Position numbers and translations under genes: made by a program | In this document: positions 9,138 to 53,378 of the stretch, in pieces | Layout of the letters: every line of letters starts with the position of its first letter | How positions within the stretch are numbered: the stretch's first letter is position 1 | DNA from: Lachnospiraceae bacterium | GTDB taxonomy: Bacteria > Bacillota > Clostridia > Lachnospirales > Lachnospiraceae | Length of the DNA stretch: 53,378 bases | Direction: 5' to 3' | Assembly: GCA_022800815.1 (NCBI GenBank) | Contig: JAAWRC010000021.1 | Coordinates: 1 to 53,378, forward strand | Notes under the pieces: model-generated | The model's database searches: none | The model's input: the letters and a program-made list of their open reading frames with translations, nothing else | Told to the model about the DNA's origin: nothing

Positions 9138-9207
9138 GGGCTGCAGGCTTTGGATGGATGTAATCGTCAGAATCCGCTCTGCAATTCCTGGTTTCGCAGG
9201 TTACCTG
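9138..9207 (+). repeat. Half copy of the dispersed palindromic element (copy D)
   Basis: The sequence from CTGCAGGCTTTGGATGGAT onward matches the right-hand end of the full copy at 28743-28805, through GTCAGAATCC to the terminal repeat. Core and left end are missing. It lies between the lipoprotein and permease genes. Confidence 0.65.
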
Positions 9208-27409: not shown

Positions 27410-28549
27410 TCACGGCTTTCCGGGGAGGTGCTGCAGGAAGCAATCCTTTAGGCTGGCCCTCAGGGGCACGCCGAGCCCTGCGAAGACCTCGTCCAGGGCG
27501 CCGAAGACCTCCGTCATGTCGGGGACGTTGGCGTTCTCTCCCATGTGGCCGATGCGGATGACCTTGCCCGCCAGGCTTCCGAAGGAGCCGGCCAGAAGGA
27601 TGCCGTGGTCTTTTTTCATGGCGGTTAAGACGTCCTTGTCCGTCACGCCCTCCGGCACGAGGAAGACGGTGACGGTATTGGAAAAACCACTCTCCAGATA
27701 GAGGGAAAGCCCGGCTTTCCGGATGGCGCATCTTGCGGCTTCGGCGATGGCGGCGTGGCGTTTTACCATGTCTGTGTCTGCGGCGATGTTGTCGACGGCG
27801 GCCCGCAGGCCGTAAATGTCGCTGATGGGCATGGTGTAGGGGAACCATTTTTCTTCATAATAATGTTCAAAGGTCGTCAGGTTTGCATAGAAGGATGCGA
27901 CGGGCGTCTTTCTTTGCTTCATGGCCGCTTTTGCGTCGGCGCTCAGGGTCACGAAGGTCAGTCCGGGAGGGGCGGACACCACCTTCTGGGAACCGCCGCA
28001 GAGGAGGTCGATCCTGGCCGCATCCACGTCCAATTCCTCGCCGAACATGGCGGAGACGGAGTCCACCACCGTCAGGATCCCGTAGCTTTTTAGGAGAGGA
28101 CAGATGGCGGCGATGTCGTTTAACATGCCGCTGGGCGTGTCGCCGTGGACCACGGTGGCATATTTGTAGTCGTGGCTTTTCTCCAGGAAGTCTTCCAGGG
28201 CCGCCACGTCGATCGCATTTCTGTCATCTACCGTATAGAGATCCGGAATTCCCCCGTACATGGAGACGAAATCGGCAAAGCCTTTTCCATAGATGCCGTT
28301 GTCGAGGACCAGGACTTTGTCGCCGGGTTCCGTCAGGGAGGCGCAGGCGGCTTCCAGGCCGAGTATCCCTTCGCCCCCCAAGATCAGGGTTTCGTTTCCC
28401 GTGTGGAGCAGACGGCTGATCGTCTCACAGGTTTCTTTATAAAATTCCACGAATTCCTCGTCCAGGTCCGGGTTGGTGCAGGGAAGGCTCCTTGCGAGCC
28501 GCACGTTTTCGGCCACCTGGGTGGGGCCGGGCGTCATGATTTTATACAT
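27410..28549 (-). CDS. Class V PLP aminotransferase (alanine-glyoxylate / serine-pyruvate type)
   Basis: 379 residues from MYKIMTPGPTQVAENVRLA at 28549; a much longer open frame to 29476 covers other genes and is not used. Landmarks: LILGGEGILGLEAACASL, VVHGDTPSGMLNDI, VVDSVSAMFGEELD, and the PLP lysine in LLCGGSQKVVSAPPGLTF. Members transfer amino groups between Ala or Ser and glyoxylate or a related oxo acid; exact substrates are not set by sequence alone. It follows the ECF S gene on the same strand, separated by the full repeat element at 28598-28805. Confidence 0.88.
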   Translation of the reverse strand: MYKIMTPGPTQVAENVRLARSLPCTNPDLDEEFVEFYKETCETISRLLHTGNETLILGGEGILGLEAACASLTEPGDKVLVLDNGIYGKGFADFVSMYGGIPDLYTVDDRNAIDVAALEDFLEKSHDYKYATVVHGDTPSGMLNDIAAICPLLKSYGILTVVDSVSAMFGEELDVDAARIDLLCGGSQKVVSAPPGLTFVTLSADAKAAMKQRKTPVASFYANLTTFEHYYEEKWFPYTMPISDIYGLRAAVDNIAADTDMVKRHAAIAEAARCAIRKAGLSLYLESGFSNTVTVFLVPEGVTDKDVLTAMKKDHGILLAGSFGSLAGKVIRIGHMGENANVPDMTEVFGALDEVFAGLGVPLRASLKDCFLQHLPGKP

Positions 28550-28597
28550 GGTCTCTCGTTCCTTTCTTTTTGGAGTCGTTCTTTTTTGGGTCATTCG

Positions 28598-28805
28598 GGC
28601 GATTGCGAAACCGCAAAACGCAGGAGATTCTGACAATTGCATCCAGGAAAAGCCCTCTGCGCCATGGAGATGAGACCATGGAAAACGGGAGGGCCAAGCC
28701 CTCCTGTTTTCTGCGCTTATGGGCTCATTGGAATGTTTGGCGCTGCAGGCTTTGGATGGATCAATTGTCAGAATCCACTCGACAATTTCGGCTTTCGCAA
28801 TCGCC
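28598..28805 (+). repeat. Full copy of dispersed palindromic (MITE-like) element, copy A
   Basis: Imperfect terminal inverted repeats: CGATTGCGAAA (28600-28610) with TTTCGCAATCG (28793-28803), then GATTCTGACAATTG (28626-28639) with CAATTGTCAGAATC (28762-28775). The core has an AAAACGG/CTGTTTT-closed GC hairpin (28682-28710) and a CCATGG pair. It matches 36859-37073 reversed, over most of its length. It contains no transposase. Confidence 0.8.
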
Positions 28806-28815
28806 TGCCTTGGAT

Positions 28816-29358
28816 TTATTTGAGTCCTGCTTTTCTTGCGGCCGTATTGAGGGTGCCGATGACGATGAGGACGATGGCGGCGGCCACGCCGATCTGCACC
28901 AGGTTCCCGGGAACGGAGGTGATGGGGGCGACGAGGCTTCCATAAATGACGGCTTCCGCAAGATAATAACCGGCCACCTTGATGATGCAGGCGGCAATCA
29001 TGGAGGCGGCGTACCAGAAATAGGTTTGATGGGCTTCCGGTTCGGTCATGCGGCCCATGACGTATCCCATGAGACCGACGATCACCAGGGTGAAGGGCGC
29101 CCACAGGGTCCAGCCGGAGAGCAGGTCGAAGAGCCCCATGCCGACACCGCCGGCGATCATTCCGGCTTTCCTGCCGAAGAGGATCGCACCGATAAAAAGA
29201 GGGACGTTGCCCAGATGGATCAGGCCGCCGTTGGCCGCAATGGGAAGGCGGACGTTGACAAAGGCCGTGAAGAGATAGGTCAGCGCCGTGAAGAGGGCGG
29301 TGACGGTGAGAAAATAAACCGTGCTCTGTTCTTTTTTTCTTGTTTTTACGTGTTCCAT
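28816..29358 (-). CDS. ECF transporter S component
   Basis: 180 residues with five to six membrane segments. VYFLTVTALFTALTYLFTAFVNVRLP followed by ANGGLIHLGNVPLFIGAILFG is the hallmark start of ECF S components, small membrane proteins that capture a vitamin or cofactor and dock on a shared EcfAA'T module. No EcfA or EcfT genes are here, so it would be a group II ECF component. The ligand is unknown. AAGGAG lies 10 nt before the ATG. It is first gene of a leftward unit with the aminotransferase, which may relate to the ligand. Confidence 0.85.
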   Translation of the reverse strand: MEHVKTRKKEQSTVYFLTVTALFTALTYLFTAFVNVRLPIAANGGLIHLGNVPLFIGAILFGRKAGMIAGGVGMGLFDLLSGWTLWAPFTLVIVGLMGYVMGRMTEPEAHQTYFWYAASMIAACIIKVAGYYLAEAVIYGSLVAPITSVPGNLVQIGVAAAIVLIVIGTLNTAARKAGLK

Positions 29359-29447
29359 GGTCTGTGCTCCTTTGAATCGTGAGTTTGGATGGTCGTTTGG
29401 CCCGGCCATGTGGCCTGATCCTATGGTAAGGGATGAATGGTATTTTT

Positions 29448-29476
29448 AATATATCCAGTTTTTGAAAATTTAACAA
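29448..29476 (-). promoter_or_regulatory. Promoter of the ECF S / aminotransferase unit
   Basis: On the - strand TTGTTA (29476-29471) and TATATT (29453-29448), 17 bp apart. The roughly 85-nt leader showed no riboswitch I recognise. Confidence 0.65.
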
Positions 29477-29525
29477 GGCCAGTTTGGCGAAAAGGGATTA
29501 GGGGGTAAAGATTGGAAAAAAGGGC

Positions 29526-29556
29526 TTGACTTCGAGTCGGACGAAGGGAGTATCAT
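29526..29556 (+). promoter_or_regulatory. MerR-type promoter with 19-bp spacer
   Basis: TTGACT (29526-29531) and TATCAT (29551-29556) are 19 bp apart, with the inverted repeat CTTCG (29530-29534) / CGAAG (29542-29546) in the spacer. Overlong spacers with a central dyad are characteristic of promoters that MerR-family activators twist into shape. No merR gene is in the window. Confidence 0.5.
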
Positions 29557-29647
29557 AAACATGACTGTGGATGGATCCCGGAGGTTTTGGGAGGATGGTC
29601 CGCAAAGGATTTTTTGTGCCTACGATTCAGAACAGGAGGTTTTGGCA

Positions 29648-30511
29648 ATGAAAGCAAAGGTTTATTTTTCAAAGGTAATTTCCCCGGAAAAGGTCCTGGA
29701 GCTCTATAAGCTGGCCGGGAAGGAGCTTGGCGGGAGGGTGGCCGTGAAGGTCCATTCCGGCGAGAAGGGGAATCAGAACTTTTTGACGCCGGATTTCTGG
29801 AAGCCGGTGGTGGATTACGTGAAGGGGACGGTGGTGGAGTGCAACACCGCCTATGAGGGTGCGAGAAACACCACGGAGCGCCATGTGGCCCTGTTAAAGG
29901 AACATGGCTGGAGCGACCTGTTCCCGGTGGAGATTTTGGACAGCGAGGGACCGGACCTGGAGCTTCCCATCCCGGAGGGGAGGAACATCCAGAAGAACTT
30001 TGTGGGAAAACATCTGGCGGACTATGATTCCATGCTGGTTCTCTCCCATTTCAAGGGACATCCCATGGGCGGCTACGGCGGAGCCTTAAAGCAGCTTTCC
30101 ATCGGCGTGGCGTCCTCCTACGGCAAGGGCTACATCCACGGGCTGGGGGATCCGGCCAACTTCTGGACGGCGGACCATGACAGCTTCCTGGAAGCCATGG
30201 CGGAGTCGGCTTCCTCCGTGGTGGAGTACATGAAGGGGAACCTGGTCTATGTCAACGTGATGAAGAACATGTCCGTGGACTGTGACTGCTGTGCGGTGGC
30301 GGAGGACCCTTGCATTCAGGACATGGGCATCCTGGTATCGTTGGATCCCATCGCCATCGACCAGGCCTGCCTGGACATCGTCTATGCCTGTGACGATCCC
30401 GGAAAGCCCCATTTCCTGGAGCGGGTCGAGTCCAGAAACGGCGTCCACACCATAGAGCGGGCCGCGGAGCTCGGCTTCGGCACCAGGGAGTACGAGCTGA
30501 CCGAAGTTTGA
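29648..30511 (+). CDS. DUF362-family protein
   Basis: 287 residues from MKAKVYFSKVI at 29648 with AGGAGG 8 nt upstream. The DUF362 pattern is present: VAVKVHSGEKGNQNFL, ECNTAYEGARNTTERH, DYDSMLVLSHFKGHPMGGYGGALKQLSIG, and the late SLDPIAIDQACLDIVY. A Cys cluster (DCDCCAVAEDPC, near 215-226) may bind metal or an Fe-S cluster. Function of the family is not settled; members are often annotated as Fe-S or [4Fe-4S] proteins. The preceding promoter suggests induction by a MerR regulator. Confidence 0.85.
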   Translation: MKAKVYFSKVISPEKVLELYKLAGKELGGRVAVKVHSGEKGNQNFLTPDFWKPVVDYVKGTVVECNTAYEGARNTTERHVALLKEHGWSDLFPVEILDSEGPDLELPIPEGRNIQKNFVGKHLADYDSMLVLSHFKGHPMGGYGGALKQLSIGVASSYGKGYIHGLGDPANFWTADHDSFLEAMAESASSVVEYMKGNLVYVNVMKNMSVDCDCCAVAEDPCIQDMGILVSLDPIAIDQACLDIVYACDDPGKPHFLERVESRNGVHTIERAAELGFGTREYELTEV

Positions 30512-30592
30512 GTAAAAGAAAAGAAGGAATGGTTGCGGAGATGTCGCAGGTGGGATGTATGTAAAAATTAAAAAGTGGAAACCCGGAAAGGT

Positions 30593-30664
30593 GTTGAATT
30601 CGGAGATTCTTTTTCGTATAATGGGACTTGTGCAAGGCTGGGGCTTGAGCAGGTCCCGTTTTTT
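30593..30664 (+). promoter_or_regulatory. Promoter immediately followed by hairpin and T run
   Basis: TTGAAT (30593-30598) and TATAAT (30617-30622), 18 bp apart, lead directly into GGGAC (30623-30627)...GTCCC (30653-30657) and T6 (30659-30664). The hairpin may instead terminate DUF362 transcription; both readings are possible. Confidence 0.5.
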
Positions 30665-30738
30665 ATGGTTCATTGTAATTGCATTGGGAAACAACGGGGT
30701 TTTTAAAAGCCTCTGGTTTTTCAAGGAAGGGATCATGT

Positions 30739-31977
30739 ATGGACAGGAGCAGGGAAAGGGAAAGCCGGAAGCGGAAGCTTCGGGCCAGAGTCATTGACAG
30801 CGGGACGGTCCTTCGGGATGAAGGGGAGCAGCAAGCCAATCGGGAGAAAAAACGGAGAAAACGGTTGGCCCGGCTGGCGGCGGCAGCTTTCGTGTTGGTC
30901 CTTGCTGTGGCGGGGGCAGCCGGATATTATATGTACCGGGAGAGCCATCAGTATGAGGAGGCGGCCGTCTTGTGGGAGAAGGAGCAGGCGGCGGATGCGT
31001 CCTCCGGCTATGAGGCGTATGGGGAAAACGTGCTTCGATACACCAGGGACGGGGCTTCCTACCTGAATAAAAAGGGGGAGGAGGTCTGGAGTCAGGCTTT
31101 CGAGATGAAATCTCCCTTTGCTGCGGTGAGGGGTGACTATGCGGCCATTGCCGATCGGAATGGTTATGCGATCTATATCTGTGACAAGGGTGGATGCCTG
31201 GGGACGGTGGCGACGGACCTTCCCATTTCCAGAATTTCCGTCTCCTCCACCGGGGTTACGGCGGCGATTCTGGAAGATGCGAAGAGCAACGTCATAGCTT
31301 TTTATGACAAGACGGGGACGAAGCTTCAGGTTGAAGTGCAGACTACCCTGGCCGGCAACGGTTATCCCATCGACCTGGCCATTTCTCCCAACGGGATGTT
31401 ACTCATGGTTTCCTACGTGTATCTGGATGCGGGCCTGATGCAGAACCAGGTGGTTTTCTATAATTTTGACGACGAGGGGCAGAGCGTAAAGGACCGGCTG
31501 GTGGGCGGGTTCCGAGAATACGGAAGCTCCATCGTGGCCAGAGTCCGTTTTCTGGATAACACCTGCGCCTGTGCCTTTGCCCAGGATCGGCTGTGTTTCT
31601 ATTCCCTGGAACACACGATGAAGCCGGAGCTTACGAGGCAGGTGGACGTGGCCGGGGAGATTGACAGCATCTGTTACTCGGAGGATTACGTGGGCTTGGT
31701 CGTATCGGAGGGAGGCGGGCCGGGGAAGCTGTTCCTCTACGGAGCTTCGGGAAAGGAGATTTTTTCGGAGGAGATTGGCACGGGGTATGAGCATGTGGAG
31801 ATCTCCGGTTCCCATGTCCTGCTTTACAATGAGACGGAATGCCGGATCTACAACGCTTCCGGCAAGCTTAAATATGCGGGCCCCCTCCCCGGGAACACGG
31901 ATAAACTGCTCTGCCTGGGAGAGCGAAGCTATATCCAGATCGGCGGACAATCCATGAGGGGACTGGAACTGAATTAG
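30739..31977 (+). CDS. DUF5711-like membrane-anchored beta-propeller-type protein
   Basis: 412 residues from MDRSRERESRKRK, preceded by AAGGAAGGG. A very basic cytoplasmic segment (1-45) leads to one membrane helix (about 48-68: LARLAAAAFVLVLAVAGAAGYY) and an extracytoplasmic region of short repeated beta motifs (AVRGDYAAIADRNGYAIYI; RISVSSTGVTAAIL; DLAISPNGMLLMVSYV; YVGLVVS). This resembles the DUF5711 family of Clostridia. Function unknown; a surface scaffold is inference. Upstream in-frame Met codons lie before the ribosome site. Confidence 0.7.
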   Translation: MDRSRERESRKRKLRARVIDSGTVLRDEGEQQANREKKRRKRLARLAAAAFVLVLAVAGAAGYYMYRESHQYEEAAVLWEKEQAADASSGYEAYGENVLRYTRDGASYLNKKGEEVWSQAFEMKSPFAAVRGDYAAIADRNGYAIYICDKGGCLGTVATDLPISRISVSSTGVTAAILEDAKSNVIAFYDKTGTKLQVEVQTTLAGNGYPIDLAISPNGMLLMVSYVYLDAGLMQNQVVFYNFDDEGQSVKDRLVGGFREYGSSIVARVRFLDNTCACAFAQDRLCFYSLEHTMKPELTRQVDVAGEIDSICYSEDYVGLVVSEGGGPGKLFLYGASGKEIFSEEIGTGYEHVEISGSHVLLYNETECRIYNASGKLKYAGPLPGNTDKLLCLGERSYIQIGGQSMRGLELN

Positions 31978-32044
31978 GAATGCGGGACCGGTTTTTCAGA
32001 GCCGGGGACAGAGAAGACAGAACGACGAAAGGAATTAAAGAAAG

Positions 32045-32887
32045 ATGGGAAGGGACATCAGGCTGATCGCACTGGATCTGGACGGCACACTTTTGACCAC
32101 GGATAAGAGGCTGACGAAGCGTACCGTTCGGACACTTTCGGAGGCGGCGGGGAGGGGCATCCAGATCGTTCCGGCCACGGGAAGGAGTCTGACGGGGCTT
32201 TCTTCAAAGATACGGGAACTGTCCTTTATCCGTTACGCCATCACGGTGAACGGGGCGGCCGTCTGGGACATGGGGCGGCAGGAGCCCATCGTGAGGCAGG
32301 CGTTTTCGACGGAGCGGGCGGTGGAACTCTGGGAGTTTATCGCCAGGTATCACGCCGTGCGGGACGTCTGTATCGACGGAATCGCCCGGATGGAGCCGGA
32401 GTATTATAATAAGGTAGAGACGTTTATGCCGGACGAGCCCCGGCGCATGCTGATCCGTTCCACCAGGACGCCCACGGAGGGACTCGGGGAGCTGGTGGCC
32501 GACGGGAGCCTGACCGTGGAAAAGTTCAATTTGTTTTTCAGGGAGGATGCGGAGGCCGTGCGGCAGCAGGCCAGGCGGGATCTTGCGCAGTTTGACGGGC
32601 TCTCGGTGACCTCCTCCCTGGGAAACAATCTGGAGATCAACCATGCGGCCGCCACCAAGGGAAGGGGACTTCTCGCACTGGCGGCCCAACTGGGGCTCTC
32701 GCCGGAGCAGACCATGGCCTTCGGGGACGGGGAGAACGACATCTCCATGCTGCGGGCTGCGGGCCTTGGGGTGGCCATGGGGAATGCGGCGGAGGAGGTC
32801 AAGGCGGCCGCCGATCTGGTGACCCTCGGCAACGACGAGGACGGCGTGGCGTATGGGATTGAAAAATATGTGTTGACAGGCAGGTAG
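32045..32887 (+). CDS. Cof-type HAD-IIB phosphatase
   Basis: 280 residues. Motif I DLDGTLLTTDK (nucleophile Asp near 10), motif II in VPATGRS, motif III Lys in HAAATKGRGLLAL, and motif IV FGDGENDISML. The inserted cap of type C2B lies between motifs II and III. These enzymes remove phosphate from sugar phosphates, FMN or PLP; the substrate cannot be told. It is 5 bp before the CvpA-like gene. Confidence 0.9.
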   Translation: MGRDIRLIALDLDGTLLTTDKRLTKRTVRTLSEAAGRGIQIVPATGRSLTGLSSKIRELSFIRYAITVNGAAVWDMGRQEPIVRQAFSTERAVELWEFIARYHAVRDVCIDGIARMEPEYYNKVETFMPDEPRRMLIRSTRTPTEGLGELVADGSLTVEKFNLFFREDAEAVRQQARRDLAQFDGLSVTSSLGNNLEINHAAATKGRGLLALAAQLGLSPEQTMAFGDGENDISMLRAAGLGVAMGNAAEEVKAAADLVTLGNDEDGVAYGIEKYVLTGR

Positions 32888-32892
32888 ACATC

Positions 32893-33807
32893 ATGGGGAT
32901 CAATTTTGTTTTTATTTGTGCGATCGGCATCATCATCGTGAACATTGTGGAGGGGGCGGCCAGGGGCTTTTTGAAGAGCAGTCTCTCTCTGGCGGCGCTC
33001 CTCGTGGCCGGGATCGTGGTTTCGGCGTTAAATCCGTTTGTGACCGGGCTCCTTAAGCGGAACACCGGGCTGGACGAATGGATCGCAGGCAAGGTGGGTT
33101 CGGCCATCGAGGCCCGGTTTGACTCGGCGGTGGCGGAGCGGCTGGGCGGCGGCGTGGTCCGGGAGGAGGGCGGCAGCGTCACCCTGGAGCAGGACGTGAC
33201 TCTTCCCATGGACCTCACCCTTCCCGACGGGACGACGATCCCGGCCGGTACCAGGATTCCGGCGGGTACGACGGTCCCTGCGGAGCTTTTTGGCGGGGAG
33301 CAGGTGAGGGAACAGGTGAAAGAGCATGTGGACACGGGGCTCTCCGCCGCCGATCAGGCGAGGGTCATCGACATGCTTCCGCTGCCGCAGAGCCTTAAGG
33401 ACACCCTTGCGGAGAACAACAACAGCGCCGTTTACGAGCAGTTTGGAGTCGACCGCTTTACGGACTATATAGGAAGCTTCGTGGGGAATGTGTGCCTGAA
33501 CATCATCGGCTATCTCCTCACCTTTATGATCGTGTTCTTCGCCCTCCATATTTTGTTCATGGCCTTTAACGTGGTGGACCGCCTGCCGGTCATTCACGGC
33601 ATCAATCACTTCGCCGGGGCGCTCCTGGGGATTTTTAAGGGTTTTCTGGTGTTGGAGATCCTGTTCCTTCTGCTGGTCCCCTTCTCTGCGACGGAATACG
33701 GCGCAAAGGTGCTGGCCCAGATCGATGCCAACGGCTTCTTAAGGGCCCTCTACCATGGAAATATTTTGATGAAGCTTTTGATGGGCGTTGTGGGGCGAAT
33801 CGTATAG
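32893..33807 (+). CDS. CvpA-family membrane protein with extracytoplasmic insert
   Basis: 304 residues. Two N-terminal membrane segments (about 5-50) and two C-terminal ones (about 190-265; ILFMAFNVVDRLPVIHGINHFAGALLGIFKGFLVL) give the CvpA fold. Between them is an insert of about 130 residues, including a short repeat-like stretch (PDGTTIPAGTRIPAGTTVPAE) of the kind predicted to form beta turns. CvpA proteins are linked to colicin V production and envelope processes, but their biochemical role is unclear. AGGCAGG and GACATC precede the ATG. Confidence 0.8.
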   Translation: MGINFVFICAIGIIIVNIVEGAARGFLKSSLSLAALLVAGIVVSALNPFVTGLLKRNTGLDEWIAGKVGSAIEARFDSAVAERLGGGVVREEGGSVTLEQDVTLPMDLTLPDGTTIPAGTRIPAGTTVPAELFGGEQVREQVKEHVDTGLSAADQARVIDMLPLPQSLKDTLAENNNSAVYEQFGVDRFTDYIGSFVGNVCLNIIGYLLTFMIVFFALHILFMAFNVVDRLPVIHGINHFAGALLGIFKGFLVLEILFLLLVPFSATEYGAKVLAQIDANGFLRALYHGNILMKLLMGVVGRIV

Positions 33808-33866
33808 TATCTTGAGTTTCCGTATTTCTTGCGACAATACAAAATACGGAAACTCAAGTATAGTAT
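33803..33866. repeat. Small hairpin repeat, family 2, copy 2, with 8-bp flanking direct repeat
   Basis: CTTGAGTTTCCGTATTT (33811-33827) pairs perfectly with AAATACGGAAACTCAAG (33842-33858). TATAGTAT lies on both sides (33803-33810 and 33859-33866) like a target-site duplication; the left one includes the cvpA stop codon. Stem and loop resemble 13289-13327. Confidence 0.65.
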
Positions 33867-33869
33867 ACA

Positions 33870-33935
33870 TTGCAAAAGGCGGGAAGGTGTGCTATATTAC
33901 CAGTATATGGGCTTTTCGGAAAGCCTTGGTTTTTT
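33870..33935 (+). promoter_or_regulatory. rml promoter followed by short terminator-like hairpin
   Basis: TTGCAA (33870-33875) and TATATT (33893-33898), 17 bp apart. GGCTTT (33910-33915) pairs with AAAGCC (33920-33925) on a TCGG loop, then T6 (33930-33935). The hairpin lies just after the expected transcription start, about 80 bp before rmlA. Confidence 0.6.
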
Positions 33936-34016
33936 ATGGTTTTCTGCCGAATTCGCCACTGTGTGACTGGGAATACTGAGTGATGAGAAATGAGAATGAA
34001 TTGAAGGAGGTACTCT

Positions 34017-34907
34017 ATGAAGGGTATTATTCTTGCCGGGGGAAGCGGCACGCGCCTGTATCCGCTTACCAAGGTGACATCGAAACAGCTTCTGCCGATC
34101 TATGACAAGCCGATGATCTATTATCCGCTGTCCGTCCTGATGAATGCGGGCATCCGGGAGATCTTGATCATCTCCACGCCGGAGGACACGCCCCGGTTCG
34201 AATCCCTTCTGGGGGACGGCCATCAGTTCGGCATCGAGCTCTCCTATGCGGTGCAGCCGAGCCCCGACGGACTGGCCCAGGCATTTATCATCGGGGAGGG
34301 ATTTATCGGGACGGACTCCGTCGCCATGGTGCTGGGGGACAACATTTTCCACGGCAACGGCCTGACCAGGAGGCTTCGGGAGGCGGCGGCCAAGGAGACC
34401 GGCGCCACGGTCTTCGGGTATTACGTGGACGACCCGGAGCGGTTCGGCATCGTGGAGTTTGACGAGGAGGGGAAGGCCATCTCCCTGGAGGAAAAGCCCG
34501 CCCATCCCAAATCCAATTACTGCGTGACCGGCCTGTATTTTTACGACAACCGGGTGGTGGAGTATGCGAAGAACCTGAAGCCCTCCGCCCGCGGCGAGCT
34601 GGAGATCACGGACCTCAACAAGATTTACCTGGAGAACGGCGAGCTGGAGGTGACGCTGCTTGGGCAGGGCTTTACCTGGCTGGACACGGGCACCCATGAG
34701 TCTTTGGTGGACGCCACCAATTTTGTCAAGACCGTGGAGACCCACCAGCACCGGAAGATCGCCTGCCTGGAGGAGATCGCCTACCTCAGGGGCTGGATCA
34801 GCAGGGAGGAACTGATGGAGACCTATGAGGTTCTCAAAAAAAATCAGTATGGTGCGTATTTAAAAGACGTCATGGACGGAAAATATATAGATAAGAAGTT
34901 TGACTAA
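34017..34907 (+). CDS. rmlA: Glucose-1-phosphate thymidylyltransferase
   Basis: 296 residues, the normal RmlA length. [20 protein letters not shown] is the nucleotide-binding signature and [18 protein letters not shown] follows. [19 protein letters not shown] and [16 protein letters not shown] are further family marks. It makes dTDP-glucose from glucose-1-phosphate and dTTP, the first step to dTDP-L-rhamnose. GAAGGAGG lies 6 nt before the ATG. It is first of three rml genes in a row. Confidence 0.96.
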
Positions 34908-34922
34908 AGCGAGGAATGCGAA

Positions 34923-35948
34923 ATGAAGATTTTAGTGACGGGTGGCGCCGGGTTCATCGGCGGAAATTTTGTGCATTACATGGTGAACAAGTATCCGGAG
35001 GATGTGATCGTCAATCTGGACCTGCTCACCTATGCGGGGAATCTGGAGACCTTAAAGCCGGTGGAGGATGCGCCCAATTATAAGTTTGTGAAGGGCGACA
35101 TTGCGGACCGGCCCTTTATCATGGATTTGTTTGGGAAGGAGCAGTTTGACGTGGTGGTCAATTTTGCGGCGGAGAGCCACGTGGACCGCTCGATCACCAA
35201 TCCGGGCCTGTTCGTGCAGACCAACGTCATGGGGACGCAGACGCTCCTGGACGCTTCCAGGCAGTTTGGCGTGAAGCGCTATCATCAGGTGTCCACCGAC
35301 GAGGTTTACGGGGACCTGCCCCTGGATCGTCCGGACCTGTTTTTCACGGAGGAGACGCCCCTTCATACGTCGAGTCCTTATTCGGCCAGCAAGGCGGGGG
35401 CCGACCTTTTGGTGCTGGCCTATTACCGGACTTTCGGGACGCCGGTGACGGTCTCCCGCTGTTCCAACAACTATGGCCCCTATCATTTTCCGGAGAAGCT
35501 GATCCCGCTTATGATCAGCCGGGCTCTGGCCGACGAGAGCCTCCCCGTCTACGGGAAGGGGGAGAACGTCCGTGACTGGCTCCATGTCTCGGACCACTGC
35601 GCCGCCATCGACCTGATCATCCGGAAGGGAAGGGTCGGGGAGGTTTACAACATCGGCGGCCACAACGAGCGGACCAACCTGGAGGTGGTGAAGACGATCC
35701 TTAAGGCCCTGGACAAGCCGGAGAGCCTGATCCAGTACGTGACGGACCGTCCGGGCCACGACAGGCGCTATGCCATCGACCCGACGAAGATCGAGACGGA
35801 GCTTGGCTGGGAGCCCAGGTACACCTTCGACACCGGTATTGCCATGACCATTCAGTGGTATCTGGACAACCAGGACTGGTGGAAGCATATCCTGAGCGGG
35901 GAGTACAGCAATTATTTTGAGAACATGTATGGAAACCGCCTGCATTAA
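34923..35948 (+). CDS. rmlB: dTDP-glucose 4,6-dehydratase
   Basis: 341 residues. Rossmann signature VTGGAGFIGGNF at the start, catalytic Thr-Asp-Glu in STDEVYGDL, and YSASKAG supplying the Tyr and Lys. RCSNNYGPYHFPEKLIPL is a strong RmlB marker. It converts dTDP-glucose to the 4-keto-6-deoxy sugar with bound NAD. It is 15 bp after rmlA. Confidence 0.97.
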   Translation: MKILVTGGAGFIGGNFVHYMVNKYPEDVIVNLDLLTYAGNLETLKPVEDAPNYKFVKGDIADRPFIMDLFGKEQFDVVVNFAAESHVDRSITNPGLFVQTNVMGTQTLLDASRQFGVKRYHQVSTDEVYGDLPLDRPDLFFTEETPLHTSSPYSASKAGADLLVLAYYRTFGTPVTVSRCSNNYGPYHFPEKLIPLMISRALADESLPVYGKGENVRDWLHVSDHCAAIDLIIRKGRVGEVYNIGGHNERTNLEVVKTILKALDKPESLIQYVTDRPGHDRRYAIDPTKIETELGWEPRYTFDTGIAMTIQWYLDNQDWWKHILSGEYSNYFENMYGNRLH

Positions 35949-35988
35949 GCGGTGCGGTGCGGAATAGAAATAGAGCAGGAGGCAGGGC

Positions 35989-36846
35989 ATGAAGGTATTG
36001 GTGACGGGTGTCAAGGGCCAGCTTGGCTATGACGTGATGAACGAGCTTGCGAAGCGTGGCATCGAGGGCGTCGGCGTGGACATCGAGGAGATGGACATCA
36101 CGGACGACGTGGCGGTCCGGGCGGTGATCACGGAGGCGAAAGTGGACGCAGTGATCCACTGTGCGGCGTTCACGGCGGTGGATGCGGCGGAGGAGAAGCT
36201 GGAACTTTGCAGGAGGATCAACGGCGGCGGCACGGAGAATATTGCGAAGGTCTGTAAGGATCTGGACCTCAAGATGATGTATATCAGTACGGACTACGTG
36301 TTTGACGGCGAGGGCGAGAGACCCTGGGAGCCGGACGACGAGAGGAATCCCTTGAATGCCTACGGCCTGTCCAAGTATGACGGGGAGCTGGCCATTGAGA
36401 AGTACGTGGAGAAGTTCTTCACGGTGCGGATTGCCTGGGTGTTCGGCGTCAACGGCAAGAATTTCATCAAGACCATGCTGCGCCTGGGCGAGGCAAACGG
36501 GGCCGTCAGCGTGGTGGACGACCAGATCGGCTCCCCAACCTACACCTACGACCTGGCGAGACTTCTGGTGGATATGATCCAGACGGAGAAGTACGGAAGG
36601 TATCACGCCACCAACGAGGGTCTCTGCAGCTGGTATGAGTTCGCCTGTGAGATTTTTAAGCAGGCGGGCATGGACGTGAAGGTGACGCCGGTGGACAGCG
36701 AGACCTACGGGAAGATGTTCCCTGCGGCTGCGAAGCGGCCGAAGAACAGCCGCATGGCGAAGGATAAGCTGGAGGCCAACGGATTTGAGCGGCTTCCCGC
36801 ATGGCAGGACGCCCTCTCAAGGTATCTGGAGATCATCAGGAAATAA
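35989..36846 (+). CDS. rmlD: dTDP-4-dehydrorhamnose reductase
   Basis: 285 residues. VTGVKGQLGYDVM (NADPH-binding turn), STDYVFDG, YGLSKYDGE (Tyr/Lys pair) and VRIAWVFGVNGKNF match RmlD. It makes the last reduction to dTDP-L-rhamnose. The 3,5-epimerase gene rmlC that must act between RmlB and RmlD is not in this cluster. It follows rmlB by 40 bp. The repeat element copy B begins 12 bp after the stop. Confidence 0.94.
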   Translation: MKVLVTGVKGQLGYDVMNELAKRGIEGVGVDIEEMDITDDVAVRAVITEAKVDAVIHCAAFTAVDAAEEKLELCRRINGGGTENIAKVCKDLDLKMMYISTDYVFDGEGERPWEPDDERNPLNAYGLSKYDGELAIEKYVEKFFTVRIAWVFGVNGKNFIKTMLRLGEANGAVSVVDDQIGSPTYTYDLARLLVDMIQTEKYGRYHATNEGLCSWYEFACEIFKQAGMDVKVTPVDSETYGKMFPAAAKRPKNSRMAKDKLEANGFERLPAWQDALSRYLEIIRK

Positions 36847-36858
36847 CGTGGGTTATCA

Positions 36859-37073
36859 GGTAATTGTGAAGCTTGAAATTGTGGAGCTGCTTCTAACGAT
36901 TGCGTCCATTCAAAGCCTGCAGCGCCAAACATTCCAATGAGCCCATAAGCACAGAAAACGCTCGGGCATAGGCCCTCCCGTTTTCCATGGTTTCCTTTCC
37001 ATGGCGCAGAGGGCTTTTCCTGGAAGCAATCGTCAGAAGAAGCTTTATCATATTTTGTGGTTCCACAATTACC
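36859..37073 (-). repeat. Full copy of dispersed palindromic (MITE-like) element, copy B
   Basis: Ends GGTAATTGTGAA (36859-36870) and TTCCACAATTACC (37061-37073) are inverted. Its reverse complement matches copy A, including CCAGGAAAAGCCCTCTGCGC, ACCATGGAAAACGGGAGGGC and CTTATGGGCTCATTGGAATG. The core hairpin differs from copy A in both arms yet still pairs. It lies between rmlD and glmM. Confidence 0.8.
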
Positions 37074-37104
37074 TTAGTGGATTATAACCAGACAGGAGCA
37101 GAAG

Positions 37105-38454
37105 ATGGGTAAGTACTTTGGAACGGACGGCTTCCGGGGGGAGGCCAACCGGGTTTTGACGGTGGAGCACGCCTACAAGGTGGGGCGGTTCCTGGGATGG
37201 TATTACGGGGCCAGGACGGGAAGCAAGTGCCGGGTGGTCATCGGCAAGGATACCAGGCGCAGTAGCTACATGTTTGAGTATTCTCTGGTGGCGGGGCTCA
37301 CGGCTTCCGGGGCGGACGCCTGCCTGCTCCATGTGACCACCACGCCCAGCGTGTCCTACGTGGTGCGGACGGAGGATTTTGACTGCGGGATCATGATCTC
37401 TGCCAGCCACAATCCCTTCTATGACAATGGGATCAAGGTGTTGAACGGCAGGGGGGAGAAGCTGGACGAGGAGGTGACGGCCCAGATCGAAGCTTACATC
37501 GACGGGGAATCCGGGGAGATTCCCTTTGCGGTGAAGGAGGGGATCGGCCGGGCTTCGGATTATTCCCAGGGAAGGAACCGGTATATCGGCTATCTGATCT
37601 CTCTGGCGGTTCGTTCGTTCAAGAATATGCGGGTGGGGCTGGACTGCTCCAACGGCAGCGCCTTCTCCATTGCCAAGAGCGTCTTTGACGCCCTGGGTGC
37701 CAAGACCTATGTGATCAACAACGAGCCCGACGGGACCAACATCAACCGGGGATGCGGTTCCACCCACATCGAAGTACTCCAGAAATTCGTGGTGGAGAAC
37801 GGCCTGGACGTGGGCTTTGCCTACGACGGCGACGCAGACCGGTGCATCGCCGTGGACGAGAACGGCCGGGTGGTGGACGGAGACCTGATCCTCTATGTCT
37901 GCGGCCTTTACATGAAGGAGCGGGGGATGCTGGACACCAACACGGTGGTGACCACCGTCATGTCCAACATCGGGCTCTACAAGGCCTTTGACATCGCCGG
38001 CATCCGCTATGAGAAGACAGACGTGGGCGACCGGTTTGTCTACGAGAACATGGTGAACAACGGGCACCGCCTGGGCGGTGAGCAGTCGGGGCATATCATT
38101 TTCAGCAAGTACGCCTCAACGGGAGACGGCATCTTAACTTCCTTAAAACTGATGGAGGTCATGCTAGAGAAAAAAGAAACCTTGGGGAAACTGACCTCCC
38201 CGGTGGAAATCTATCCCCAGCTTCTCAAAAATATCCGGGTGAAGGATAAGCCGGCCGCCAGGGCGGATCAGGACGTGCAGGCGGCGGTGGACGCGGTGGA
38301 GAAGGCTCTCGGAAACGACGGCCGGATCCTGGTCCGGGAGAGCGGCACGGAGCCGGTGATCCGGGTCATGGTGGAGGCGAGGACCGACGAGCTTTGTGAA
38401 AAATATGTATCTCAGGTCCTGGAAGTCATCAGGGCAAAAGGACATGAAGAATAA
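37105..38454 (+). CDS. glmM: Phosphoglucosamine mutase
   Basis: 449 residues, the standard length. GKYFGTDGFRGEAN at the start, phosphoserine loop GIMISASHNPFYDNGIK (near 100), metal loop GFAYDGDADRCIAVDE, sugar loop GGEQSGHIIF and phosphate-binding VRESGTEPVIRVM. It interconverts glucosamine-6-P and glucosamine-1-P for UDP-GlcNAc and peptidoglycan synthesis. ACAGGAGCAG precedes the ATG. The next gene overlaps its end by 11 bp. Confidence 0.95.
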   Translation: MGKYFGTDGFRGEANRVLTVEHAYKVGRFLGWYYGARTGSKCRVVIGKDTRRSSYMFEYSLVAGLTASGADACLLHVTTTPSVSYVVRTEDFDCGIMISASHNPFYDNGIKVLNGRGEKLDEEVTAQIEAYIDGESGEIPFAVKEGIGRASDYSQGRNRYIGYLISLAVRSFKNMRVGLDCSNGSAFSIAKSVFDALGAKTYVINNEPDGTNINRGCGSTHIEVLQKFVVENGLDVGFAYDGDADRCIAVDENGRVVDGDLILYVCGLYMKERGMLDTNTVVTTVMSNIGLYKAFDIAGIRYEKTDVGDRFVYENMVNNGHRLGGEQSGHIIFSKYASTGDGILTSLKLMEVMLEKKETLGKLTSPVEIYPQLLKNIRVKDKPAARADQDVQAAVDAVEKALGNDGRILVRESGTEPVIRVMVEARTDELCEKYVSQVLEVIRAKGHEE

Positions 38455-38872
38455 GAAGAGATTGTGGAGGCGCTGGATTTTTCTGGCGCTCTCCCTTTTG
38501 TGGATGGCGGTGATCTTTTATTTTTCCGGGCAGACCGGCAGCGAGTCCGGGGCTCTCAGCAGTTCTTTTTCCGGTTTTCTCGGCCTGCCGGAGTGGCTGA
38601 TCCGCAAGGGCGCCCACGTGGCCGAATACGGCGCCCTCGGCTTTTTCCTCTTCGGCTTTTTCGATACCGTTCCCCGGAAGGGCATGTGGCTTGCCTCCTG
38701 GGGAACGGCCGTCCTCTATGCCGTCTCCGACGAACTGCACCAGATGTTTTCCTCCGGACGCACTCCCGCCCTCCGGGACGTGTGCATCGATGCCGCCGGA
38801 GCCGCCCTGGGCGTGGCCGTCCTGTACCTGCTCACAGCTTTCCTGCGCCGCCGTGGGCATCTGCCAGAGTAA
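38444..38872 (+). CDS. VanZ-like membrane protein
   Basis: 142 residues with four membrane segments. FYFSGQTGSESGALSSS, RKGAHVAEYGALGFFLF and YAVSDELHQMFSSGRTPALRDVCIDAAGAALG are the conserved VanZ-family stretches. VanZ gives low-level teicoplanin resistance in enterococci, but most homologues have no known role. The start at 38444 overlaps glmM by 11 bp, so expression is probably coupled. Confidence 0.88.
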   Translation: MKNKKRLWRRWIFLALSLLWMAVIFYFSGQTGSESGALSSSFSGFLGLPEWLIRKGAHVAEYGALGFFLFGFFDTVPRKGMWLASWGTAVLYAVSDELHQMFSSGRTPALRDVCIDAAGAALGVAVLYLLTAFLRRRGHLPE

Positions 38873-38964
38873 CCTTCCAGGCGTCCGCTGCCCCCCGCAG
38901 CCGCCGGGAAGGCCCTGCGGATCTTGCAGCCGTGTCGCCGCCCATGGCCCCTAGCGCCAGAACA

Positions 38965-39211
38965 GGAAGAAGATTGGTGCTTTTCTGCATGAAATCTGAT
39001 TGGAAATGTCCGGCGTCTGCTGTTCGCAGACGATAGGAGAGATTTGCCAATTTTACGAGCATAGCGCAGGCAATTTCATCCGACCCGGTTTGATGGAGGT
39101 GAAATTGCCTGCAATGGGCGGCGCAGTAAAATTGGCAAATCCGACGTGTCTGCGGGCATCAGACGCCGGACATTTCGTGAAAAATTCAATAAAAAGCACC
39201 GATTTTCTTCC
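38965..39211. repeat. 247-bp interrupted palindrome of unknown type
   Basis: Nested perfect arms: GAAATGTCCGGCGTCTG (39003-39019) with 39160-39176; CGCAGAC (39025-39031) with 39148-39154; GATTTGCCAATTTTAC (39041-39056) with 39126-39141; GCAGGCAATTTCA (39066-39078) with 39100-39112. Imperfect outer arms run from 38965 and to 39211. It fills the non-coding gap between the VanZ-like gene and hisC and shares no sequence with the other repeat families here. Confidence 0.85.
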
Positions 39212-39247
39212 GTCAACATACCATCACCTCACAGAAAGGAATCTATT

Positions 39248-40306
39248 ATGAAACCCTGGGAAGCAAACATCCGAAAAGTAACCCCCTATGTTCCCGGCGA
39301 GCAGCCGAAACAGACAGACGTAATCAAACTGAATACCAACGAGAATCCCTATGGCCCCTCCCCGGCGGTGAAAAAGGCACTGGAGGACTTTGACACGGAG
39401 CTTCTGCGCCTGTACCCGGACCCTGCGTCCCAGGTGCTGGTGGACGCCCTGGCGAAGCGGTACGGCCTTGGGACGGACCAGGTTTTCGTGGGAGTCGGTT
39501 CCGACGACGTCCTCGCCATGTCCTTTCTGACCTTTTTCAATTCCGGCAAGCCCATTTTGTTTCCGGACATCTCCTACTCTTTCTACAGCGTGTGGGCGGA
39601 GCTTTACGGGATCCCTTATGAGTGTCCGGTCCTGGACGATGGTTTTCAGATCCGGAAGGAGGATTATTATAAAGAAAACGGAGGGGTGATCTTCCCGAAT
39701 CCCAATGCGCCCACCTCCCTGGCCCTGGGCCTTGCGGAGGTGGAGGACATTGTTGCCCACAACCAGAAGTCGGTGGTCATCGTGGACGAGGCGTATATTG
39801 ATTTCGGAGGGGAGTCGGCCCTCGGGCTTTTGTCCAAATATGAAAATCTGCTGGTGGTGCGGACTTTTTCCAAGTCCCGCTCCATGGCGGGCCTTCGAAT
39901 CGGCTACGCCATGGGGGCGCCGGCGCTCATCCGGGCATTGAACGACGTTAAGTATTCCTTTAATTCTTACACCATGAACCAGACTTCCCTGGTCCTCGGG
40001 ACGGCGGCCCTGGAGGACGAGGCATATTTTCAGGAGACAGTCGGAAAGATACGGGCCACCAGGGAGCGGGCGAAGAAGCGGCTTTCGGCCCTGGGCTTTG
40101 TCTGCCCGGAGCCCTCCGCCAACTTCATCTTTGCCAGCCGGCCGGGGACAGATGCGAAGGCACTTTTTGATGCCTTGAGGGAGAAAAACATTTACGTCCG
40201 GCATTTTGACGGGCCGAGAATCGGGGATTATCTTCGCATCACCATCGGCACCGACGAACAGATGGAGCGATTGTTTGAGTTTTTGGAAAATTATTTAAAA
40301 CATTGA
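39248..40306 (+). CDS. hisC: Histidinol-phosphate aminotransferase
   Basis: 352 residues from MKPWEANIRKVTPYVPG with AGAAAGGA upstream. LNTNENPYGPSPAV, FPNPNAPTSLAL, VVDEAYIDFGG and the PLP lysine in RTFSKSRSMAGLRIGYA define HisC. It converts histidinol-phosphate and 2-oxoglutarate to imidazole-acetol-phosphate and Glu in reverse notation of the biosynthetic step. No other his genes are near, so it is an orphan copy. Some HisC proteins also act on aromatic oxo acids. The stretch before it holds the 247-bp palindrome. Confidence 0.9.
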   Translation: MKPWEANIRKVTPYVPGEQPKQTDVIKLNTNENPYGPSPAVKKALEDFDTELLRLYPDPASQVLVDALAKRYGLGTDQVFVGVGSDDVLAMSFLTFFNSGKPILFPDISYSFYSVWAELYGIPYECPVLDDGFQIRKEDYYKENGGVIFPNPNAPTSLALGLAEVEDIVAHNQKSVVIVDEAYIDFGGESALGLLSKYENLLVVRTFSKSRSMAGLRIGYAMGAPALIRALNDVKYSFNSYTMNQTSLVLGTAALEDEAYFQETVGKIRATRERAKKRLSALGFVCPEPSANFIFASRPGTDAKALFDALREKNIYVRHFDGPRIGDYLRITIGTDEQMERLFEFLENYLKH

Positions 40307-40331
40307 CAAAAAAGAAATGCCCTGTTATCAT
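40303..40331 (+). promoter_or_regulatory. glnA promoter
   Basis: TTGACA (40303-40308) and TATCAT (40326-40331), 17 bp apart; the -35 overlaps the hisC stop codon. Confidence 0.75.
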
Positions 40332-40343
40332 CAAATGGAGAAC

Positions 40344-40396
40344 AAGGGCGTTTCTTCGTTGAGAGGATGCGCCCTTTTGGCTTTTATGCGCAAGCC
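40344..40396 (+). promoter_or_regulatory. Two hairpins in the glnA leader, candidate ANTAR-controlled attenuator
   Basis: AGGGCG (40344-40350 region) pairs with CGCCCTT ending near 40376, followed by TTTT. A second small hairpin GGCTT/AAGCC spans 40379-40396. They lie just after the transcription start of glnA, which is followed by a gene for an ANTAR antiterminator. I could not identify the paired six-base loops (A at 1, G at 4) that ANTAR proteins bind. Confidence 0.45.
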
Positions 40397-40416
40397 TTTA
40401 CGGAGGAGATTTATTG

Positions 40417-40478
40417 GGTGATTGCGAAACTCAAAAGCTTGTCGAGTATTGCCGCAGTTTTTACGCTTCGCAATTACT
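40417..40478 (+). repeat. End-only copy of the dispersed palindromic element, copy C
   Basis: GGTGATTGCGAA (40417-40428) and TTCGCAATTACT (40467-40478) are inverted and match the termini of copies A and B; the core is absent. It sits inside the glnA leader 35 bp before the start codon. Confidence 0.6.
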
Positions 40479-40512: not shown

Positions 40513-41853
40513 ATGAGTGAAAACAGATACACCAGGGAGGACGTGATCCGGCTGGCGGAGGAGGAGGACGTGGAGTTTGTCCGTCTGCAGTTTCCTGATA
40601 TCTTCGGGGTTCTGAAAAATATGGCCATCACGGTCAGCCAGCTGGAGAAGGCGCTGCACAATGAATGCAGCTTTGACGGCGTATCCGTGAACCGCTACGG
40701 GGAATTTGCCAGGACGGACCTGTTTCTCAGGCCGGACCTGGACACCTTTGAGATTTTTCCCTGGCGGCCCAAGCAGGGAAAGGTGGCCCGCCTGATCTGC
40801 GACGTGTACAATGCGGACGGGACGCCCTACGCCGCCGATACCCGTCTGGCCTTGAAGCGGGTGATGGAGAAGGCGAAGCGGATGGGGTACGTGTTCAAGG
40901 TGGAGCCGGAATGCGAATTTTTTCTGTTCCAGATCGACGACGACGGGAAGCCGACCACGGTCACCTATGAGCAGGCGGGGTATTTCGACGTGGGGCCCGT
41001 GGATTTTGCGGAAAACGTGCGGCGGGACATCGTCCTCAATCTGGAGGACATGGGATTCGAGGTCCGTTCCTCCCACCATGAGAAGGCGCCCGGGCAGCAC
41101 GAGATTGACTTCAAATACAGTGACGCCCTGAAAACGGCGGATAACCTTCTGACCTTCAAGATGACGGTGAAGTCCATCGCCAGGCGTCACGGGCTTCACG
41201 CCACCTTCATGCCCAAGCCCAAGTCGGACGTGGACGGTTCCGGCATGCATGTCAACATGTCCCTCTGGGATGCGGAGGGGCGGGACGTCTTTTATGACGA
41301 GGAGGCCCCCTATAAGCTGAGCGGGACGGCCCGTCAGTTCATGGCGGGGATCCTCAGTCACATCCGGGCGATCACGGCCCTCACGAACCCTCTCGTGAAT
41401 TCTTATAAGCGGCTGGTGCCGGGCTTCGAGGCGCCGGTCTACGCCACCTGGTCGGCGGAGACCGTCTTTGCCCTGCTCAGGGTGCCGGCGGTCATGGGCA
41501 GCCATGCCAAGCTGGAACTGCGCTCCCCGGATCCGACGGCGAACCCCTACCTGGTGTTTGCCGCCTGTCTGGCGGCGGGACTCGAGGGTATCGAGAAGGA
41601 ATTGGAGCTTTGCCCGAGCGTGGACGTGAACGTGTCCGCCTGGACCGACGAACAGAGGAAAAACCTGGATATCGAACGGCTGCCCAGGAACATATGCGAG
41701 GCCGTCGACGCCCTGGAGGCGGACGCCTTCATCACCGGGGTCATGGGAGATGCGCTGGCCAAACAGTATGTCGACGCAAAACGAAAGGAATGGGACGTTT
41801 ACCGCAGGCAGGTGACGGAATGGGAGATCGGGGAGTACCTGAATCGCTACTAG
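40513..41853 (+). CDS. glnA: Type I glutamine synthetase
   Basis: 446 residues from MSENRYTREDVIR, with AAAGGAG 9 nt upstream; an earlier in-frame start would include the repeat. VEFVRLQFPDIFGVLKN, DLFLRPDLDTF, EPECEFFLF, HEKAPGQHEIDFKY, HATFMPKP, GSGMHVNMSL and RSPDPTANPYL are the active-site blocks. The length fits the GSI-alpha type, which lacks the adenylylation site. It makes glutamine from Glu, NH3 and ATP. An ANTAR regulator gene follows by 31 bp. Confidence 0.95.
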   Translation: MSENRYTREDVIRLAEEEDVEFVRLQFPDIFGVLKNMAITVSQLEKALHNECSFDGVSVNRYGEFARTDLFLRPDLDTFEIFPWRPKQGKVARLICDVYNADGTPYAADTRLALKRVMEKAKRMGYVFKVEPECEFFLFQIDDDGKPTTVTYEQAGYFDVGPVDFAENVRRDIVLNLEDMGFEVRSSHHEKAPGQHEIDFKYSDALKTADNLLTFKMTVKSIARRHGLHATFMPKPKSDVDGSGMHVNMSLWDAEGRDVFYDEEAPYKLSGTARQFMAGILSHIRAITALTNPLVNSYKRLVPGFEAPVYATWSAETVFALLRVPAVMGSHAKLELRSPDPTANPYLVFAACLAAGLEGIEKELELCPSVDVNVSAWTDEQRKNLDIERLPRNICEAVDALEADAFITGVMGDALAKQYVDAKRKEWDVYRRQVTEWEIGEYLNRY

Positions 41854-53011: not shown

Positions 53012-53378
53012 GTGGCGTTGACAAGAGAGGATTTACAGGCGATTAAAATACTGTTAGAGGAAAATCTGCTGCCGGTGAAGGAGAGCTTGGAGCGGGTGGA
53101 GGAACGAGTGAGAGCGGTCGAGAGGAGACTGGAGGCCGTGGAGGAACGAGTGGAAGCGGTCGAGAGGAAGCTTGAGGCCGTGGAAGAACGAGTGGAGGCG
53201 GTCGAGAGGAGACTGGAGGCCGTGGAAGAACGAGTGGAGGCGGTCGAGAGGAAGCTTGAGGCCGTGGAAAAACGAGTGGAGGCGGTCGAGAGGAGACTTG
53301 AGGCCGTGGAAAAACGAGTGGAGGCGGTCGAGAGGAGACTTGAGGCCGTGGAAAAACGAGTGGAGGCGGTCGAGAGGA
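53012..53378 (+). CDS. Coiled-coil protein built of 14-residue repeats (partial, runs off the window)
   Basis: The GTG start has GGGGGTGAT upstream. The first 25 residues (MALTREDLQAIKILLEENLL...) are unique; from 53087 the protein is a 42-bp tandem repeat encoding LEAVEERVEAVERR, two heptads with Leu/Val at a and d positions. Six units and most of a seventh are present and the window ends inside the array. Units differ at E/K and R/K positions. The predicted product is a long, highly charged rod. No function is known; similar short coiled-coil proteins occur in Lachnospiraceae. Copy number in the genome may be larger than seen, since arrays like this break assemblies. Confidence 0.8.
   Translation, partial: MALTREDLQAIKILLEENLLPVKESLERVEERVRAVERRLEAVEERVEAVERKLEAVEERVEAVERRLEAVEERVEAVERKLEAVEKRVEAVERRLEAVEKRVEAVERRLEAVEKRVEAVER
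53087..53378 (+). repeat. 42-bp in-frame tandem repeat, about seven units
   Basis: Unit of 42 bp begins at 53087, 53129, 53171, 53213, 53255, 53297 and 53339. The period equals 14 codons, so reading frame is kept whatever the copy number. The later units are nearly identical and the first is most diverged. Confidence 0.92.

Follow-up and report, generated by a model that had tools for sequence, protein, structure and literature searches.

A hairpin-forming MITE family and its candidate partner insertion sequence beside Shine-Dalgarno-like motifs in Lachnospiraceae

A contig of 53,378 nucleotides from a Lachnospiraceae bacterium (assembly GCA_022800815.1, contig JAAWRC010000021.1; hereafter the window) carries four copies, A to D, of a dispersed palindromic element lying between genes (Table 1). 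The window is one entire contig (C13) of a 3.40 Mb genome in 75 contigs; in our labels G denotes a genome, C a contig and L a fetched locus, with G000 being the genome of the window. A previous sequence-only reading had recognised the repeat family and missed both a partner insertion sequence (IS) elsewhere in the genome and the fixed position of the copies by Shine-Dalgarno (SD) motifs. We find good support for classifying the family as miniature inverted-repeat transposable elements (MITEs), and consider it very probable from sequence comparisons that they are mobilised in trans by a distantly IS1182-like IS whose target choice follows an SD-like motif.

Table 1. Copies of the element in the window and sequence features at the edges of copy B
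Feature	Coordinates	Strand	Description
Copy D	~9138-9206	+	right half only; solute-binding protein gene on one side, ABC permease gene (ATG 9246, ~40 bp off) on the other
Copy A	28597-28806	+	full-length MITE; left end toward aminotransferase gene 27410-28549 (-)
Copy B, target duplication, first repeat	36848-36856	+	GTGGGTTAT
Copy B	36858-37074	-	full-length MITE, inverted; RmlD-type reductase gene on one side, phosphoglucomutase/phosphomannomutase-family gene on the other
Copy B, target duplication, second repeat	37077-37085	+	GTGGATTAT, 1 mismatch to first repeat
SD of the gene starting at 37105	37094-37098	+	AGGAG; first base is the 20th beyond the end of copy B
Copy C	40416-40478	+	short form, 63 bp, only the two ends kept

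The bounds first called for the four copies were accurate to within 1-2 bases and their intergenic placement stands; according to our own gene calls, all four, rather than the two thought to be inside operons, are flanked by two genes on the same strand. Copies B and C fit the spacing to an SD motif that is described below. Beyond the right end of copy C, AAGGAG begins at the 20th base outward and the ATG of the glutamine synthetase gene lies at 40513; a clean target duplication is absent there. The repeats flanking copy B score 6, just under the threshold, so this copy is outside the 33 duplications counted below. The spacing is looser for copy A, which lies ~48 bp from the ATG of the aminotransferase gene and has no target duplication detected in its flanks, and for the truncated copy D.

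A blast search of the genome with copy A, as proposed by the sequence-only reading, returned 53 matches at E ≤ 1e-3 (the best, 4.6e-105, being copy A itself and the next 7.1e-79), some of which are one place counted on both strands; more copies are thus present. Allowing up to 2 mismatches, this genome contains 186 occurrences of the terminal inverted repeat (TIR) pattern AGGYRATTGCGAAAC and 12 of the reversed control. A profile of model length 213 was built from 31 full copies, which measure 210-217 bp. Searching fetched loci with this profile identified 69 whole or partial matches in the genome of the window, 32 of them full-length, together with 17 full copies in G008 and 30 in G010; these 79 full copies are the basis of the analyses below, and the copy numbers are approximate because copies broken by contig ends count as pieces. 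Besides the class of ~210 bp to which A and B belong there are short forms of ~55-140 bp and truncated pieces such as D, the commonest short form (C and similar copies) being ~62 bp and hardly more than the ends.

The distribution of the family is narrow. Matches to copy A were found in 3 of 11 same-genus genomes (that of the window, G008 and G010), and in a family-wide draw of 397 genomes, with at most two candidates scored per genome, in the genome of the window and G008 only, G010 not being among the matches listed. An exact 27-base pattern located 52 stretches among named species genomes, all in two metagenome-assembled genomes (uncultured Lachnotalea sp. and uncultured Lachnospiraceae bacterium iMGMC-385), in a scan that may leave out the genome of the window itself. 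Copy A had no match in phage and plasmid collections, and one exact 27-base core pattern had none in viral contigs.

Insertion has left duplications and empty sites. Target duplications, mostly of 9-13 bp (range 8-15), reach the score threshold at 33 of the 79 full copies, where random pairing of left and right flanks gave a mean of 0.46 and a maximum of 3. The site of copy B is empty in G008, the orthologous DNA being continuous and aligning as two blocks with a 10-bp overlap, and a comparison with nine same-genus regions found B in none of them, even in part. Copy A is absent from the corresponding regions of G004, G005, G006 and G009, in each of which both flanks could be aligned; for G008 and G010 the alignment covered a single flank. 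Copy C is absent from G008, G006 and G004, the gap in G004 holding other sequence of ~130 bp; G005 aligned on one side only, and no end was recognisable at this site in G010 with up to 4 mismatches. Conversely, L028 in the genome of the window and L139 in G008 hold the same MITE insertion with nearly identical flanks in two species. Some insertions are therefore older than the species split and other sites are still empty. The copies are short, numerous and without an internal transposase, and they have TIRs; together with the target duplications, the empty sites and the occurrence in this genome of an IS whose ends match, this raises what had been called a MITE-like family to a MITE family.

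The position of the copies was analysed relative to an SD-like motif (AAAGGAG), counted at positions 14-28 outward of the element end. Among 296 distinct end-like sites in the three genomes, a set that allows up to 3 mismatches and so includes some chance sites, outward AGGA peaks at offsets 17-20, with 31 ends at offset 19 and ~2 per position further out; ATG peaks at 30-34 and the complement CTCC is flat. Full MITE copies carry the motif on at least one side in 59 of 79 cases, compared with 6 for the reverse-complement control, and it is found at the right end of 41 copies, the left end of 20 and both ends of 2. A start codon lies 26-38 bp away in 41 of the 63 MITE copies that face a gene start, where uniform placement in the same gaps predicts 10.6 (standard deviation 2.8, maximum 23 in 20,000 simulations).

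The probable partner lies at locus L060 (C34) of the same genome: a 1.7-kb element with ends like those of the MITE (AGGTAATTGCGAAAC on one side, AGACGTTTGCGAAAC on the other) and a gene for a transposase of 467 amino acids (aa). That no transposase is encoded, as the sequence-only reading stated, holds for the copies themselves; elsewhere in the genome this gene encodes a probable partner transposase. The protein matches DUF772 in Pfam (2.2e-11, over the cut-off), scores 20.7 bits against DDE_Tnp_1, under the cut-off of 23 for that model, and matches the NCBIfam IS1182 model NF033551 at 2.5e-17; because the 62.9 bits obtained there fall short of the curated cut-off of 270, we call it IS1182-like and do not file it as an IS1182 member. 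Named relatives with similar ends occur on two plasmids, pCY360 of Butyrivibrio proteoclasticus B316 (77% aa) and one from Roseburia (63% aa). Relatives were detected at E ≤ 1e-20 in 40 of the 397 family genomes and likewise in 21 of 265 genomes drawn from the class, both counts including the genome of the window.

The two ends of the IS differ, the transposase-proximal end being AGGCGTTTGCGAAACGCC and the distal end AGGTAATTGCGAAAC. Both ends of the MITE are of the distal type in most copies, and several copies in G010 have GGCGTTTG-like ends. Target duplications of 10-15 bp were found at 9 of 20 IS copies with both ends recognised (2 of the 20 have no distal flank), shuffling giving a mean of 0.035 and a maximum of 1. 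Judged by its ends, this IS is a well-supported candidate for the partner of the MITE.

We regard the flanks of the IS, which are independent of the MITE, as the strongest test of targeting. The flanks came from the loci returned by relative and end-pattern searches, a subset of all IS copies, in the genome of the window and, for nearly all, in other genera. Of 44 distinct flanks at the proximal end, 38 have the SD motif; at the distal end none of 24 has it, once proximal ends had been purged from that set (before purging, 34 of 66 'distal' ends had the motif). In 30 of the 44 proximal flanks the motif is followed by ATG, GTG or TTG 2-14 nt behind, some of which is expected by chance. Across the family draw the exact proximal end is present in 50 of 397 genomes, and in 42 of 397 it is accompanied by AGGAG 13-23 nt outward. 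Taken together, these counts across genera strongly support target choice by an SD-like DNA motif, the mechanism being what we infer from them.

Two kinds of site suggest that the DNA motif itself, not translation, is recognised, because they carry the motif without a gene start. At L172 one IS sits within the left end of a second IS, with the customary distance to GTGAGGAG and no start codon where one would normally follow; G180:C88 resembles this arrangement. At L270 a distant relative lies just before what reads by eye as the 5' end of a tRNA gene, which forms its flank (GGAGAGATGG / GGAGAGATGGCTGAGCTGG). In IS1182 family members proper, 0 of 7 loci showed the SD motif at this offset by eye, a weak contrast, as these were the only loci of 29 examined that had recognisable ends; one of these members (L233) has AAAGGAG 3 nt beyond its right end.

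We propose that the IS transposase binds the AGGYRATTGCGAAAC ends and recognises a purine-rich DNA motif on the target. It would cut in an A/T-rich stretch of ~11 bp, the edge of which is ~5-8 bp away from the motif on its 5' side. Because the motif is usually an SD sequence, the element would land ~30-35 bp before a start codon and leave both the SD and the start codon intact. The IS would be oriented with its transposase-proximal end on the motif side, and the near-symmetric MITE may use either end, as the counts of 41 right and 20 left ends suggest. Each full MITE insertion would then place a hairpin of ~210 nt into a leader or intercistronic region.

This hairpin is unusually stable compared with shuffled sequences (copy A, -116.1 kcal/mol, z -9.8; copy B, -91.0 kcal/mol, z -6.0). 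The 79 copies form two subfamilies of 35 and 44 members that differ by ~30%. The consensus of each folds as a long hairpin, whichever strand is taken, at -95 to -114 kcal/mol. The paired changes in the core that had been noted from the sequence were confirmed on a tree, with 58 same-branch double changes from one Watson-Crick pair to another, compared with 0-6 when the partners were slid by 1-3 columns. Conservation in the 79 copies is 95-100% at two symmetric 3x3 GGA/GGA internal loops and at an A.G mismatch, except for one loop position at 82%. The structure is maintained, and the likeliest reason is that the structured strand is under selection, either as part of the transcript or while the element is being mobilised. 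Selection at the RNA level, as suggested by the sequence-only reading, is plausible, and the structure may serve the host or only the mobility of the element. Pairing is indeed kept; the RNA level is no more than suggested, by a modest asymmetry between G-U and A-C changes that is partly matched by a strand mutation bias, because paired changes are, per pair, no less frequent in the terminal part than inside, and much the same pattern would result if mobility were what is selected.

It is possible, if on the doubtful side, that the hairpin is an RNA that serves the host, such as a regulatory leader or a processing or stability element, and is selected copy by copy after insertion. Most full copies adjoin a translation start, and among private changes G-U outnumbers A-C in the 36 copies whose flanking genes run along the + strand (71 vs 31) and not in the 17 copies of opposite orientation (30 vs 29). 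However, the same contrast restricted to the arms is not significant (35:13 vs 18:16, Fisher p = 0.10), and in the + copies C>T also exceeds G>A in unpaired columns (24:9). Numerous short forms have no core, and the one Rfam match at gathering score within the window is a tRNA, with none up to E = 1 around copy A. Pairing might also be kept without selection, through copying of one arm onto the other by template switching or conversion in quasi-palindromes, which we judge rather unlikely. In its favour, double changes lie on single branches, and their frequency per pair is no lower in the terminal part (22 in 21 pairs) than inside (51 in 59 pairs). Such copying would be expected to erase the GGA/GGA loops and the A.G mismatch, which instead stay unpaired and conserved, and changes to G-U outnumber those to A-C inside the arms (105:66, p = 0.0035), with no clear excess in the terminal part (82:66, p = 0.22).

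Several observations weigh against targeted mobilisation by this IS. The motif is missing at the counted offset in 20 of the 79 full MITE copies and in 6 of the 44 IS proximal flanks, and motif plus start codon in 14 of the 44; within the window, copy A lies 48 bp from the start of its gene. The start-codon distances depend on a gene caller that rewards SD motifs, of which the motif counts are independent. In other families of the class, sorted by eye, the strict motif was present at only 4 of 8 identified proximal ends, the misses showing AAGGGAG (L261) or GGAGAG (L270) at its place or nothing (L258 and the tandem L262), and one distal end (L278) also shows AAGGA. No duplication was detected at 46 of the 79 full copies by the score used, and the insertion counts are not all independent because some insertions, as at L028 and L139, are common to two species. 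Regarding the IS itself, its flanks in the genome of the window do not match in the assembly, and its duplication is inferred from two contigs; no IS sequence was noticed in the MITE core, the two not having been aligned; and among the 11 same-genus genomes the transposase was found only in that of the window, though G008 and G010 carry the MITE. G008 retains at least an IS end at a site shared with the genome of the window.

The position of the copies might instead reflect random insertion followed by purifying selection that spares copies upstream of an SD, where damage is least. Most full copies do lie between same-strand genes, many of them in short gaps, and only 2 overlap a called gene; a looser, related pattern is that IS are often less than 100 bp upstream of genes in large surveys (PMC9208149). 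This explanation appears improbable because selection alone predicts neither the precision in wide gaps nor the fixed orientation of the IS ends. In gaps of at least 150 bp, 14 of 26 MITE copies are still 26-38 bp from the start, compared with 1.44 expected (largest simulation 7), and only one end of the IS faces the motif. The sharp peak of AGGA at 17-20 argues in the same direction, as does the motif at the IS-in-IS and tRNA-gene sites that have no gene start. That the family is an old, vertically inherited leader RNA and not mobile is barely credible: its strongly conserved structure and fixed position before genes would agree with it, but the target duplications, the empty sites, the IS with the same ends and the 8 of 11 same-genus genomes without a match do not.

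RUP and Correia elements are bacterial MITEs mobilised by IS with matching ends. Compared with such MITEs, including the pneumococcal repeats (PMC3049150), the present family is alike in having TIRs, target duplications, strong pairing, a mostly intergenic location, shorter ends-only forms and no transposase within the copy. It is unlike them in its near-fixed spacing to the SD motif, in a partner IS whose transposase is far under the IS1182 cut-off, and in the covariation of its core hairpin, where two GGA/GGA loops are conserved. The candidate IS resembles the IS1182 family in matching NF033551 and DUF772, and differs from it in the low score and in the placement by the SD motif. REP/RAYT repeats are defined as lacking target duplications, which this family has. 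Directed target choice is known from Tn7, which inserts at glmS, and from the yeast elements Ty1 and Ty3. As with these elements, the landing place would be chosen by a feature and host genes stay usable; unlike theirs, the address is a short, very common motif, and the IS has one evident transposase gene, with no separate targeting gene noticed in it. No earlier description of SD-addressed insertion was found in the literature searched, which includes PMC3196728, with most subscription papers and all bioRxiv preprints outside it.

The bacterial transposons known to avoid harm to the host use one rare site or loose preferences. The address proposed here is among the commonest translation signals of a genome, so that a very large number of genes could be open to the element, which could leave them unbroken while rewriting their leaders. 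More speculatively, a lineage of DDE transposases across Lachnospiraceae and some other Clostridia may use the SD motif as a DNA address, with MITE satellites acting as mobile cassettes for leaders, by which a structured RNA under selection is set before ribosome-binding sites genome-wide; we put this forward tentatively and would not be surprised to see it fail. If such an address is indeed used, it would provide a transposase that tags ribosome-binding sites and a natural means for hairpins to enter 5' leaders and intercistronic regions, and it would make target choice by a single-gene IS directly testable.

Further observations concern individual insertions. An IS site with AAGAGTATCAAT beside AAAGGAG is common to the genome of the window (L060 on C34, L073 on C56) and G008 (L228, G008:C54). 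In the assembly of the genome of the window the two flanks of this site lie on different contigs, which suggests recombination or misassembly between IS copies. Tandem IS copies with only a shared repeat of 11-15 bp between them occur at L115 (pCY360), L176 and L262, as if the second copy had used the duplicated site. MITEs also occur in side-by-side pairs, at L003/L030 (G000:C25:42037-42475; the L003 pair being 13 bp apart and in opposite orientation), L154 and L051 (G010), which is repeated use of one target region. A suspected full IS at G008:C5 proved to be two separate small elements, and many of the lone TIR matches with no partner nearby, which had been candidates for IS copies, proved to be short forms or contig ends within recent MITE copies.

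In the genome of the window many contigs, such as C2, C6, C29, C32, C48, C50, C62 and C73 (L054, L018, L083, L084, L065, L066, L023 and L024), end inside MITE copies, mostly near the middle of the hairpin. One copy seems to be split between the end of C38 and the start of C62, which share the flank repeat GTAAATGAA; a similar pairing of the ends of C6 and C73 was dropped, as their flanks had no clear match. Within the window, positions ~53081-53378 hold a tandem repeat with a unit of 42 bases (91% self-match at that period over the last 300 bases), which reaches the contig end inside an open frame.

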